A DNA stretch of 35,664 bases from Bacteroidota bacterium (lineage in GTDB: Bacteria > Bacteroidota > Ignavibacteria > Kapaibacteriales > UBA961). A program made the position numbers and the translations under genes. The stretch's first letter is position 1; every line of letters begins with the position of its first letter. The notes under the pieces were generated by a model, which was given only the letters and a program-made list of their open reading frames with translations, ran no database searches and had not been told where the DNA came from. This document shows, piece after piece, positions 9,639-22,669 of this stretch. The stretch covers positions 21,619 through 57,282 of the forward strand of contig JAFDZU010000024.1 in NCBI GenBank assembly GCA_018266765.1, written 5' to 3'.

Positions 9639-10177
9639 GATTTTAATAACCTTGATAAAGTTTCCGGTGCCATCCTCAAATAAGAAGCGATATATTTATT
9701 GGGGATTTCTTGGAAAACATGTGGACTGCGTCGTAATAAATTATAATATCTCTCTTCCGGTGTTTTACACAATAAGTCAATTTCTCTTTCTATATGTTGA
9801 TATAAAGTGACACTCAGGGCAGACATCCAAATCTGTCTTATTTCCTCGTCAATATCAATGATATGAAAAAAATCATCACGGTAAATTTGAACCAGTGTTG
9901 TCTTTTTAATTGCTTGAATACTAAACTTGGTAGGACAATTTCCAATAAACGAATCTAAAGCACTAATAAATGAACTCGGATAACCGAATCGCATAGTTTG
10001 TATATCATGTTCAAGATTTAGAAATACATGTAATGACCCTTTTTTAATAAAATAAAATCCTGTGGAATATTCACCTTCTTGAATGAGGTAATCATGACGG
10101 TGTAGCACTATCTCTTTTTTCCATTTTGTCGGGTAGCGAATATCAATTATCTCTTTTAATTGTTCTATTTGCTTCAT
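9635..10177 (-). CDS. Crp/Fnr-family transcriptional regulator with FNR-like recognition helix
   Basis: 180 residues. The N-terminal part (about 15-120) is a cyclic-nucleotide-binding-like jelly roll (LIQEGEYSTGFYFIKKGSLHVFL). A dimer helix and a short winged helix follow (IPNKYIASYLRMAPETLSRLLKS). The recognition helix reads ETLSR, the ExxSR signature that in FNR reads TTGAT half-sites. The N-terminal cysteine cluster of true FNR is absent (only two scattered Cys), so an Fe-S oxygen sensor is unlikely and the ligand is unknown. The C-terminus stops at the recognition helix, as is common for Bacteroidota members. Its own 3' end carries a perfect TTGAT-N4-ATCAA site in front of the downstream T9SS cargo gene, its likely target. 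Confidence 0.88.
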   Translation of the reverse strand: MKQIEQLKEIIDIRYPTKWKKEIVLHRHDYLIQEGEYSTGFYFIKKGSLHVFLNLEHDIQTMRFGYPSSFISALDSFIGNCPTKFSIQAIKKTTLVQIYRDDFFHIIDIDEEIRQIWMSALSVTLYQHIEREIDLLCKTPEERYYNLLRRSPHVFQEIPNKYIASYLRMAPETLSRLLKS

Positions 10178-14792: not shown

Positions 14793-16004
14793 TCACCGTA
14801 ACAGTCCGCTGATTCCAAACCCAAACGCAAGTATCAGCAGCAAAGCTCCGCTAACCCACATCGTAATTCTTTTGTGTTTAGAACCGACTCCAACAAATGG
14901 AAGCAGAATCCAAAATCCGCACCAAATCACCATAAACAGGGCGGCTAAATCCATCGGGAATACACGCAAAATCTGAAACCCGGGCAGAAAATACCAACTT
15001 GGACGCAAAGTAGCCGCACCACTTATTGCTTTGCTCACATCTGCCGGTAATCGCTCGGCATAATTCCCAAACGGAACAAAGACACTTGCTCCAACTGCCA
15101 ATATTACAACAGCTACGACTAACCTTGATATGTACGAAAATTGACTTGGCGGAGTGTCGGTGCTTAATTTATGTGCTAATCGAACAACCGAACGAAACAT
15201 CCAAATAATGATAATAGGACTAATAAGAATATGCACAATAAACATTCTCGGCAAAGTAGCCGGCCCGAGAATAGTTCCGCCTCGAATAATAGCGGCAAAT
15301 GTTTCCCCCAAAGGAATATAACTAACAGCACTCAGAACAATTTGAGCCGAAACATACCCAAGAATATTCCATGGTAAAACATGACCACTAAAAGCCGAAA
15401 ACAACGCAACAGCAATAATACCAAGTGTTTGAAACCACACTAATTCAAATGGCGCACGATACCCACGCCGAAAGAACACCACCACAAACGCAACAACCAA
15501 ACATCCGATAAAGCAATGAACGCTCAAAATATGGATTCCACGAATAATAGCTCCAAAAGGGATTTGTTGCATAATCCCTCGTTCAACGCTTGCCGTTGCT
15601 GCGCTGACGGTAAGAATTTGCCCTTGTTCGTCGCGCATTATTTGGATGTTTGATAGTTTATCGGCAGGAAATTCAACGCTGTCGGCGGAGCGAATCGGAA
15701 GTAACAGCATTTCATTTGCCATACAAATTGTATCAGAATTAACCACGACAGTTTGTAATGCACGAGCCATCGCAAGCGGTTTGTTCTGTTGGTATTGTGG
15801 CCTGGCTGAAGGTTCGTAATTGAGCGAAAGAAGAATTCCCGTAATAACAAGAACGCCCAGAAATACTCCGGCAAGACGCATCGTATCAAGCCACAAAGCA
15901 GGTAATTGTACAGTTTTACTACTCAGAGGAAATGGAGATTTTCCCAAACGAATGCGCCACCAGAGCTTACTATTACGAAGCGAAGTTTGAAGTGCTGATG
16001 GCAT
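14793..16004 (-). CDS. Aberrant cytochrome b/b6-like membrane protein lacking one heme ligand pair
   Basis: 403 residues with about eight membrane helices, covering both the b6-like N-terminal part and the subunit IV-like C-terminal part. Matches to cytochrome b are clear: IMQQIPFGAIIRGIH, APFELVW, SGHVLPWNILGYVSAQI, GPATLPRMFIVH and PSWYFLPGFQILR. Ungapped alignment to b6 by eye keeps His158 (helix B) and His258 (helix D), one heme pair. The second helix B ligand position is Ala172, and the helix D one is Ser272/Val273, so the other pair is absent. The Qo motif is PSWY (335-338), not PEWY. About 60 extra residues (about 70-132) sit in the loop between helices A and B. No Rieske or cytochrome c gene is adjacent. 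It starts 47 bp after the PD40/OmpA gene, probably in one operon. Confidence 0.85.
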   Translation of the reverse strand: MPSALQTSLRNSKLWWRIRLGKSPFPLSSKTVQLPALWLDTMRLAGVFLGVLVITGILLSLNYEPSARPQYQQNKPLAMARALQTVVVNSDTICMANEMLLLPIRSADSVEFPADKLSNIQIMRDEQGQILTVSAATASVERGIMQQIPFGAIIRGIHILSVHCFIGCLVVAFVVVFFRRGYRAPFELVWFQTLGIIAVALFSAFSGHVLPWNILGYVSAQIVLSAVSYIPLGETFAAIIRGGTILGPATLPRMFIVHILISPIIIIWMFRSVVRLAHKLSTDTPPSQFSYISRLVVAVVILAVGASVFVPFGNYAERLPADVSKAISGAATLRPSWYFLPGFQILRVFPMDLAALFMVIWCGFWILLPFVGVGSKHKRITMWVSGALLLILAFGFGISGLLR

Positions 16005-18429: not shown

Positions 18430-18482
18430 ATTATAAATTGCAACTCATGAGGTTGGTTGGTAACAACCGACTGGACGGAAAG
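18430..18482 (+). repeat. Family R repeat, partial copy 3
   Basis: TTATAAATTGCAACTCATGA, then the palindrome GGTTGGTTGGTAACAACCGA followed by CTGGACGGAAAG. It corresponds to the middle and end of the family R unit and ends 10 bp before the start codon of the S41 peptidase gene. Confidence 0.6.
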
Positions 18483-18492
18483 ACCTACACCA

Positions 18493-19507
18493 ATGAAAGG
18501 ATTAACAATAACATTATTTTTGACACTAACCTATTCCATTTCGTTTGGACAATTACTTGTTCCTGTGGACAGCCTTTATACATTTATCAAATTTAACTCA
18601 ATTCACCGAACAATGGCTAACTGGAATCAGATTGACAAATCTTTCCACGAACAAATAAAAACTGCAAGATCTCTCAATGACACAATGAACTGTTTTGTTA
18701 CAGTATTGAGAAGTTTAAATGATGTTCACTCGCAAATATTTCTCAATAATCAATATTATGGACATTATCCAAGCTTTGATGACTCGGTGTTGGTTTGGCT
18801 CAAACCTCTAAATGACAAAGCAACTTCAATGGCTAATAAAATCCATTCTGAAATTCTTATAAATGAGATTGCCTACATAAGAATTCCGTCCTTTCAAGTT
18901 TATAACCCTAAACAAATAAATGCTTACTCCCAATTACTTGCTGACAGCATTAGTAAATTATCAAAGAGATGTAAAAAAGGATTTATTATAGATTTACGGT
19001 TGAATGGTGGCGGTAATTTGTATCCGATGCTTACGGGTCTTAATCAGCTCTTAGGAAATAAAACCGTTGGATATGAGACAGATGTAAATGACAACATTAT
19101 CCGTACTTGGGAAATTAAAAATGGAAACTTTAGTATTGGCGGTTACCAAACAACCGACATAAAAGTTAAGTCAAATTCTAACCCAATAAATGTACCAACT
19201 GTAGTAATTCTTGGTCCAGTTACTAAGAGTGCAGGAAGTATGGTTGCAATTGCTTTTAAAGGCAGGCCCAATACCTAATTTTATTGGTGAGCCGACAGCT
19301 GACGGTTACACAACTTCAAATGGATATTTTCAATTTTCTTCAAATTTGACTTTAAATTTTGCAACAAATTATGTGGCTGACAGAAATAAGAACGTGTATA
19401 AAACTACCGTAAATCCAGACTTAACCATTAATCAAAGAGACAATTTTAACGATCTATTGAATGATGAAAAAATTAAAGCGGCAATCAAATGGTTGACAGA
19501 AAAATAA
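18493..19507 (+). pseudogene. S41-family peptidase split by a single-base frameshift
   Basis: The first frame runs from ATG at 18493 (signal peptide MKGLTITLFLTLTYSISFGQ) to a stop at 19276-19278. The second frame continues the same protein to 19507. Skipping the T at 19276 joins FKGRPNT to NFIGEPTADGYTTSNG, the expected S41 continuation. The joined protein has about 338 residues. S41 landmarks are the strand FIIDLRLNGGGNLYPML, the nucleophile region KSAGSMVAIAFKG and GEPTADGYTT. S41 enzymes are serine proteases that cut C-terminal tails; this one would be exported. The gene is more AT-rich than its neighbours and sits between a family R copy and an attC-like palindrome, so it is likely acquired. 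A sequencing or assembly error could also explain the shift. Confidence 0.82.
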
Positions 19508-20157: not shown

Positions 20158-20799
20158 CTATACTTTATTCCGTAGAGGAAAGAAAGCCCGAAACTCACCT
20201 ACTAAGGAAATGATAAAAATCCAAATTACCATTGGAACTATAAATGAAATACCAATTTGATTGATAAGAGTAATTTGCATCATCCAACTGATAATTCCCT
20301 TCACCGTATCGCCAAACCTATAAATTCCTATACCGTTTGCTTCGGTATAGCCGACAATTATCAACCAAAGCACCGCGGCTATAAATACATGGATAAAAAG
20401 TAATCCTATACCCAGGGATTTCAACCGATGTTTCCAGCCGATAGGTGTAGCAAGCATTAACGCCAAAAACATACTCGTCGGCAAATATCCTTGCAGATGA
20501 GAATTAGCTCCCAATTCTCCAAGCACAGGTCTTCCATCGGTATAGTGATAATTTTTATTATTGATGCGTACAGAGATATTCGTTGCTCGGTGACCGTCGG
20601 CAAGAGTTGTTTGCTGTACATTTTTGAGAACGAATGATATCGCTACGTTTTCCCAATGCGTGCCAAAAAAGAAATTTCCATAGTCACGAAAATACGAGGA
20701 ATACTCATCGCCCAATCCCATAAACAGGAGCGCAACAAACGCGAAATAGATGCAAATAAAATGCAGAACAAAATAGAGTAACTTGTTATAATGCTTCAT
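20158..20799 (-). CDS. Membrane partner of the exosortase (exosortase H-associated type)
   Basis: 213 residues. It has an N-terminal membrane helix (about 7-27), a roughly 75-residue soluble region (about 30-105, YFRDYGNFFFGTHWENVAISF) and at least three further helices (about 106-120, 128-150 and 178-203). The start codon at 20799 lies inside the 3' end of the exosortase gene (14-bp overlap), so the two are translationally coupled. Position and topology fit the small membrane proteins found next to exosortase H genes; the biochemical role is unknown. The family assignment rests on context more than on a motif, and the 3' end abuts a family R repeat. Confidence 0.7.
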   Translation of the reverse strand: MKHYNKLLYFVLHFICIYFAFVALLFMGLGDEYSSYFRDYGNFFFGTHWENVAISFVLKNVQQTTLADGHRATNISVRINNKNYHYTDGRPVLGELGANSHLQGYLPTSMFLALMLATPIGWKHRLKSLGIGLLFIHVFIAAVLWLIIVGYTEANGIGIYRFGDTVKGIISWMMQITLINQIGISFIVPMVIWIFIISLVGEFRAFFPLRNKV

Positions 20800-21373
20800 G
20801 CTGCGGCTGCCTTTCCGTTATCGACACCCATAGCACAAACAGCGCAAGTGCGAGAATTATAAACAATGCCTGCCACACTTCAATGTGCATCAATTCAAAA
20901 TATTCACGCTTATAGATGCCTGTTAGAAAGAGAGTAATGAGCCGGATAATATTAATTGCATACAGCAAAGCCACCCCGCCAAGTACACCCAAAAGCTTCT
21001 TTTTCCAAGGGGCAGGAAATGCAAGCACCACCACGGCAAAGAGGAACGTCGGTTCGAGGGCATCACAGCCATACGCAATATTCATGGCAAATGCTTGACT
21101 ACTGACGGTCGTACCCGAGGTAGCGGTTGCAAACCCGAGAACAGAAAGTGTTGCTGACGTCACCGAAGCCACCACCGAGAGGTAAGCAGGAAGAAACTGT
21201 TTGCTGAAGGTTTCGGTGCCGGTAAGTGCGTAATAGCATCCCATCAAGAGCACAACTATTGCTAAGAATCGAAGCTGAGGCATTCGTTTTTGGAGAGCAG
21301 TACCAATCCTTTTTGGTAAAGATTGGGATGGAGTTTCGTGTTTTTTCTTTTGTTGCTTTTGTTTTGGTTTCAT
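20786..21373 (-). CDS. Exosortase, probable XrtH (IPTL-CTERM-specific) type
   Basis: 195 residues. After a basic N-terminus (KPKQKQQKKKH) come several membrane helices. The three catalytic elements of the exosortase/archaeosortase family are all present: Cys103 in AYGCDALEP, Arg144 in NIIRLITLFLTG and His163 in LMHIEVWQ. Exosortases cleave a C-terminal tripartite signal of exported proteins at the inner membrane and pass the protein onward. The gene just upstream ends in VPSLGEWG plus a helix and a basic tail, the IPTLxxWG-CTERM form, which points to the exosortase H subtype. The compact length also fits a dedicated, single-substrate system. It is cotranscribed with its partner gene (14-bp overlap). 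Confidence 0.87.
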   Translation of the reverse strand: MKPKQKQQKKKHETPSQSLPKRIGTALQKRMPQLRFLAIVVLLMGCYYALTGTETFSKQFLPAYLSVVASVTSATLSVLGFATATSGTTVSSQAFAMNIAYGCDALEPTFLFAVVVLAFPAPWKKKLLGVLGGVALLYAINIIRLITLFLTGIYKREYFELMHIEVWQALFIILALALFVLWVSITERQPQHEAL

Positions 21374-21458: not shown

Positions 21459-22669
21459 TTACGCAATCCGTGTCATATTGCGCTTTGAAATATATCTATA
21501 TCCTGCAAAAAGCAAGACCATACCAAGAATAATCATACCCCATTCGCCAAGACTGGGAACGCTTAAAACACCCGTGACGAAAAAATTATTAACAGGACTT
21601 GTGAAAGTACCTCCGACATAGAAAACACCGCTGTTAAAGAGCAAGCGTGTGTCATTGACATAAACAGGGTTCAAAGCAATCGACCAAGCAGGGTCAGCGA
21701 CTCCTGCACCCGCAGCAGATAGCTTAGCGATATAATTCTTTGCCGCGCCGCCGATATTCCCGAAATTTCCTGTTGCATAGACATCTGTGCCTCTCACTTC
21801 AATGTCGGTGACCCTACCATCCGCATTTGGATTCCATGTGGCATCAGCAGCACCTATACCGGAGTATGATAGCTTAGCAATGTAATTCCTTGCCTGACCA
21901 CCTATATTCAAGAAATTGCCCCCTGCATAGACATCGGTTCCATTCACTACGATGCTATATACACGAGCATCAGCATTAGGATTCCATGTAGCATCAGCTA
22001 CACCGGCACCAGTTGTGGATAGCTTGGCGATGTAATTCCTCGTTGCACCACCAATAGTCGTGAACTCTCCTGCTACAAAGACATCGGTACCGTTTACTAA
22101 AATACGATAAAGACCAGCATTTGCGTTGGGATTCCACGTGGGATCAGCTACACCAGCACCAGTTGTGGATAACTTAGCGATGTAATTCCTCGTTGCGCCA
22201 CCGATACTCGTGAAAACACCTCCTGCATAAACATCTGTACCACTTACTGCAATAGTGGTGATAATATTATCGGCACTAGGATTCCACGTGGGATCAGCTA
22301 CACCGGCACCAGTTGTGGATAACTTAGCGATACAACTCCTTGATAAGCCGCCGATAAAGTTGAAAATTCCACCTACATAGACATCTGTACCACTTATTGT
22401 AATAGTTTGAACATAACCATTGGCATTTGGATTCCAAGTCATGTCAAGAGCGCCTGTCCCTCTATTATACCTTGCAATATAGTTACGCGGAGTGGCTCCA
22501 CACTGTGTAAAATCACCACCTATATAGAGACATAGGTAGGGTCAACTGCTACAGCCCAAACGGTACTGTTTGGTAAATCAACAAAAGCAGGATTGTGTAC
22601 TTGCGCCGTAACTACAGATGCCGATAGACATACACAACAGTAAAAAAGTACAATGAGATATTTCATCAT
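21459..22669 (-). pseudogene. Exosortase substrate with delta-60-type repeats and IPTL-CTERM signal, frameshifted
   Basis: The frame beginning at 22669 encodes a signal peptide (MMKYLIVLFYCCVCLSASVV, cleavage near TAQV) and the first propeller strand (WAVAVDPTYV), then stops at 22520-22522. The adjacent frame continues without loss (YIGGDFTQCGATPRNYIAR...) to the stop at 21459. The frame change falls between 22523 and 22541. The body has five clear 50-residue repeats (GTDVYxGGxFxxIGG, RNYIAKLSTTGAGVADPTWNP) and partial ones at both ends, of the delta-60 or propeller kind. The C-terminus is VPSLGEWG, a membrane helix (MIILGMVLLFAGYRYI) and a basic tail SKRNMTR, an IPTLxxWG-CTERM sorting signal. 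The exosortase gene follows 85 bp downstream. It is either a decayed gene or a sequence error; the start ATGATG resembles other starts here. Confidence 0.8.
21666..22427 (-). repeat. Five tandem 150-bp coding repeats
   Basis: Five 50-residue units in the exosortase substrate. At DNA level stretches such as GGATTCCACGTGGGATCAGC recur almost unchanged in adjacent units, suggesting recent duplication or gene conversion. The fifth unit carries four extra residues (WSIALNP). Confidence 0.85.

Follow-up and report, generated by a model that had tools for sequence, protein, structure and literature searches.

The gene at positions 14793..16004 (-) of the window (the whole stretch of DNA analysed, 35,664 nucleotides) encodes a cytochrome b homologue of 403 aa that keeps both histidine ligands of one haem and has lost both ligands of the other. 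A one-haem architecture together with a Rieske partnership is very likely for this protein and its relatives in the order, hereafter the mono-haem family, with the haem content being inferred from sequence. On balance we lean towards an overall reading in which the protein would belong to a Rieske/haem-bL complex that lacks haem bH, performs no Q cycle and works at the Qo site only; here both the haem content and the activity are inferences.

The open reading frame is a full-length cytochrome b, matching the Pfam N-terminal models PF13631 (3e-18) and PF00033 (1e-17) and, weakly and just above cut-off, the C-terminal model PF00032. In a phmmer search against PDB chains, helix B and helix D both matched chain 8smr_I, a Pseudomonas aeruginosa cytochrome b, with no gaps. 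In the resulting alignment His158 (15531..15533; this and all further features of the gene lie on the (-) strand) and His258 (15231..15233) stand opposite the first ligands of the two helices, while Ala172 (15489..15491) stands opposite the second helix-B histidine and Val273 (codon 15186-15188), at +15, opposite the second helix-D histidine. The original prediction, which had been made by eye and had placed the kept ligands at His158 and His258 and the lost ones at Ala172 and Ser272/Val273 (15186..15191), therefore held at all of these sites, codons included. Replacement of H212, the second helix-D histidine in R. capsulatus, is reported to give a bH knockout (PMC4330944), so that the kept pair here is that of haem bL and the lost pair that of haem bH. 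Haem bL is the periplasmic haem, beside the quinol-oxidation site Qo, and haem bH the cytoplasmic one, beside Qi.

Conservation was assessed in an alignment of 41 mono-haem homologues from the order and 13 canonical proteins. All eight haem residues are present in 13/13 canonical cytochromes b of the same phylum. The two bL ligands, as well as the glycines of helix A and helix C that pack on this haem (Gly56, 15837..15839, and Gly207, 15384..15386), are each found in 41/41 mono-haem homologues, and Arg155 (15540..15542), the arginine of the RxxH ahead of the bL ligand, in 35/41. The bH site presents the opposite picture. Histidine occurs in 0/41 homologues at position 172 and in 0/41 at position 273 (canonical 13/13), and the glycines that would pack on haem bH are mostly gone as well, being retained in only 4/41 at the helix-A site (Met42 here, 15879..15881) and 7/41 at the helix-C site (Thr193 here, 15426..15428), as against 13/13 canonical proteins at either site. 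The bH glycines formed no part of the original observation and were not used in picking the sequences; their parallel loss is thus independent support for the loss of the haem. Position 172 is variable (Trp 11, Leu 9, Ala 5, Ile 5, others), with tryptophan or leucine the most frequent residues, possibly as though occupying the space of the haem. The suggestion that one haem had been lost coherently and not by random decay is strongly supported, since both ligands and the glycines of bH are gone across the order and all four bL elements are invariant. Ala172 itself is not conserved among homologues, but no histidine is ever found at 172 or 273 in the 41, and the finding of close homologues with four ligands, which would have refuted the prediction, did not materialise (0/41 has either bH histidine).

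An ordinary di-haem cytochrome b, with haem bH still bound through other residues, would also have overturned the prediction. The only point in its favour is that the window's own protein has further histidines, H163, H208 and H278. All three lack conservation across the family, both bH-packing glycines are gone, and tryptophan is common at the helix-B position, making this alternative very unlikely. Of the two replacement ligands that had been named in advance, H163 was rejected because it lies 5 residues past H158 and is not conserved, and H278 because it is not conserved even inside the genus.

Structure prediction, like the Pfam matching, returned a cytochrome b, as had been anticipated. 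An AlphaFold2 model of the window protein, calculated with the 41+13 alignment as input, has a pLDDT of 92.2 and a pTM of 0.90, and its closest PDB folds in Foldseek are bc1 cytochromes b (TM about 0.6, E 6e-12). The model predicts seven long helices, the C-terminal part consisting of three transmembrane helices as in b6f subunit IV, in place of the four of canonical bc1. Comparison inside the genus gave a dN/dS of ~0.09-0.14 (dS is partly saturated), which points to purifying selection on the gene. The alternative of a decaying pseudogene or a misalignment is all but excluded by the intact reading frame, a dN/dS of about 0.1, the high-confidence model and the repetition of the pattern in 41 homologues; we found nothing in its favour.

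A protein search found homologues, canonical ones among them, in 44/123 genomes of the order, and after profile searches the mono-haem type was counted in 48 genomes. Two same-genus relatives, at 69% identity, come from Ignavibacteriae/Ignavibacteria MAGs, one of them groundwater-derived. In a maximum-likelihood tree computed without the ligand columns and without the lineage-specific insert described below, the 41 mono-haem proteins are split from the canonical ones at a single 100/100 branch. A single loss of haem bH is the simplest reading of this tree, although it remains unproven as the root is not known. In a 395-genome sample of the phylum we found no case of the same loss outside the order: four ligands were present wherever both helices could be read, weak matches included. 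The nearest four-ligand homologues available are canonical cytochromes b of the Bacteroidota group, such as those of family f7 in the same order. These are also Rieske-linked, but they have all eight haem residues and no insert, and stand on the other side of the 100/100 branch. Two f7 genomes (G057:C7, locus L069, and G090:C71, locus L070) carry, besides a canonical one-piece copy elsewhere, a second cytochrome b with a Rieske gene, split into separate N- and C-terminal reading frames in the manner of b6 and subunit IV.

The evidence for a Rieske partner comes from gene position, co-occurrence and conservation. The Rieske gene directly adjoins the mono-haem gene in families f4 and f9; in other families it lies on a separate contig or some kb off, and in the window's genome it is found at G000:C13 (locus L052), 9675-10133, with the motifs CTHAGC...CRCHGG. 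With the canonical family f7 left out of the count, the Rieske type is present in 46/48 mono-haem genomes and in 1/21 genomes without a mono-haem gene (Fisher p 4e-14, a value that ignores kinship, so that its true weight is lower). Both exceptions among the mono-haem genomes have a truncated or divergent Rieske gene directly adjoining the mono-haem gene. The cluster ligands C93, H95, C111 and H114 and the disulfide cysteines C98 and C113 are invariant in 13/13 aligned partner proteins, which thus show the CxH..CxxH pattern and the disulfide expected of a high-potential-type Rieske partner. In the window's own genus and in family f8, where the Rieske gene lies apart from the cytochrome b gene, the partnership rests on co-occurrence, without data on physical association. 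We also observed that mono-haem cytochrome b and Rieske gene are absent together from G109, G118, genus g10 of f4, and families f2, f6 and f10, and that in one genome (G033, 86% complete) a Rieske gene is present and cytochrome b was undetected. The partner gene, taken with the Qo motif of the cytochrome, suggests quinol chemistry on the p side, as an inference from sequence. The motif reads PSWY here (14991..15002) against canonical PEWY, and P and W are each kept in 40/41 homologues, the glutamate in 9/41.

Apart from the Rieske gene, no redox gene is conserved across families as a neighbour at the loci examined, and no CxxCH gene (c1/f-like) directly adjoins the cytochrome b genes there. 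The neighbours checked included peptidase, OmpA/PD40, alanine dehydrogenase, UDP-glucose dehydrogenase, RF-1, SUI1, lysine decarboxylase-like and SpoU genes, among others, none of which is common to different families. The frequent placement of the gene among unrelated genes, and the low turnover expected without bH, could point to a role in redox sensing or signalling, with the state of the menaquinol pool read out via haem bL and the Rieske cluster; this is unlikely, as neither a signalling domain nor a regulator is linked to the gene at any locus examined. Elsewhere in the window, two overlapping reading frames (18457-19278 and 19211-19507, together 18457-19507 (+)) look like one frameshifted S41-type peptidase. 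The reading frame at 20786-21373 (-) appears exosortase-like by eye, and a plausible substrate for it is encoded next to it at 21459-22442 (-), a repeat protein with an IPTL-CTERM-like tail (VPSLGEWGMIILGMVLLFAGYRYISKR).

In the window's genome the only PF00033 match is the window gene, and there is no other cytochrome b. The same genome contains an alternative complex III cluster, with NrfD-like, molybdopterin/Fe-S-like and pentahaem subunits, which also includes cytochrome c, COX1, COX3 and SCO1 genes (an aa3-type oxidase). Given this cluster, the role that a bc complex usually plays is probably filled by another enzyme, and we infer from gene content that the main quinol:cytochrome c work is likely to fall to alternative complex III. 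Further COX1-family matches beyond the main oxidase were seen on G000:C35, G000:C3 and G000:C66, one of them interrupted by stops (C3:6683-7075).

A canonical cytochrome b binds two haems b, each between two of four histidines on helices B and D; in the mono-haem family only the bL pair of histidines is present (41/41). The family shares with canonical bc1 and b6f the fold, the bL ligands and glycines, the P-x-W of the Qo motif and a Rieske partner gene with its ligands and disulfide. It differs from them in having no bH ligands, few of the bH glycines, mostly no PEWY glutamate and no adjoining c1/f gene, and its A-B loop carries a beta insert. Without haem bH electrons would have no path to Qi, which would rule out both a Q cycle and electron transfer across the membrane; the original claim that the protein could not sustain a normal Q cycle is supported by known chemistry and by the Rhodobacter bH knockouts (PMC4330944). 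In those knockouts antimycin-insensitive reduction of haem bL persists without Q-cycle turnover, and they are poor enzymes (PMC4330944). Linear electron flow has been described for the antimycin-blocked complex and for a chloroplast cytochrome b6 mutant that lacks a bH ligand (PMC10715153, citing Malnoe et al. 2011).

We postulate that the complex, having permanently lost haem bH and kept bL, the periplasmic haem, alone, would oxidise menaquinol on one side only, as a Qo-only dehydrogenase. Electrons would pass singly to the Rieske cluster, and haem bL would serve as a temporary store for the second electron until the Rieske protein could hand that one on as well to a c-type cytochrome. The reaction of an antimycin-blocked bc1 complex would thereby have been turned into a stable enzyme. 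This linear mechanism, for which activity is inferred from sequence and analogy, we consider as apt to prove wrong as right. Several observations count against it: the PEWY glutamate is mostly replaced, which might slow or alter quinol oxidation; the laboratory bH knockouts perform poorly; and we saw no way for electrons to leave haem bL, the acceptor remaining unidentified in the absence of an adjoining c1/f-like gene. The original suggestion of a quinone-linked electron relay accordingly holds only in part, fitting the Rieske gene and the P-x-W motif and lacking an identified exit from the bL haem, whose presence is itself inferred.

One way out would be on the periplasmic side, with the quinol electrons still split and the second passing from haem bL to an unidentified acceptor docked on the insert, so that both branches would end in the periplasm. 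The loss of bH removes the normal exit, and the insert is lineage-specific. It is predicted to form beta structure (strands 75-106 and 120-122) within the A-B loop (15594..15821), and the A-B loop of cytochrome b sits on the p side. Against this, the family alignment shows no conserved Cys, His or Met in the insert with which it could hold a cofactor, some members have almost no insert, and the Rieske gene is the only conserved redox neighbour of the cytochrome b gene; we consider this alternative unlikely and reject the insert as a cofactor carrier. Searched alone, the insert has no sequence match in the PDB.

The engineered R. capsulatus bH knockout H212N (PMC4330944) offers a parallel to the Qo-only reading, as it, too, has haem bL alone in cytochrome b (by inference, for the family) and an intact Rieske protein. 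It is, however, a laboratory point mutant of a di-haem protein, whereas in the natural family the entire bH pocket has been remodelled and an insert acquired. A natural parallel is the 'deranged' bc1 of Acidiphilium and Acidocella, in which both haem bH histidines are lost (PMC10715153). In these acidophilic Acetobacteraceae the Rieske protein is missing or ligand-less, and the complex was judged non-functional (PMC10715153). The hosts are Alphaproteobacteria, a lineage unrelated to the mono-haem family, which differs from the deranged complex in its intact Rieske ligands, the order-wide extent of its loss, its strictly conserved bL site and its lineage-specific insert.

The same precedent underlies what remains a possible alternative, namely that the protein is a non-catalytic structural relic stabilising another respiratory complex, for example complex I, as was proposed for the deranged bc1 (PMC10715153). 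The loss of most PEWY glutamates would agree with such a role, as would the location of the gene in genus g16 of family f5 (L149, 6848-9797, and L150), downstream of the complex I 49-kDa subunit gene with only a SpoU methylase gene between. On the other hand, the Acetobacteraceae precedent has lost its Rieske ligands too, while those of the present family are all invariant and its haem bL elements are 41/41, none of which a purely structural role would need.

We found no description of the mono-haem family in the open-access literature searched, which leaves out most subscription journals. Natural loss of both bH ligands is already known from the Acetobacteraceae (PMC10715153); what is likely to be new is its combination with intact Rieske ligands, order-wide bL conservation and the insert. 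A bolder reading, for which the case for and the case against seem to us evenly matched, is that the order harbours a natural class of catalytically active single-haem (bL) Rieske/cytochrome b complexes whose menaquinol oxidation would involve neither bifurcation nor a Q cycle, activity and haem content again being inferred. The two-haem wiring of cytochrome b across the membrane is regarded as what defines the Q cycle and cannot be separated from it. If the bolder reading is true, the Qo-Rieske half of the bc complex would be selectable as an enzyme by itself. A lineage without bH but with bL and an intact Rieske protein would be a natural experiment on the Qo half alone, on the control of short circuits and on the reason for retaining bL, and questions so far approached only through antimycin and point mutants would become testable on an evolved protein.
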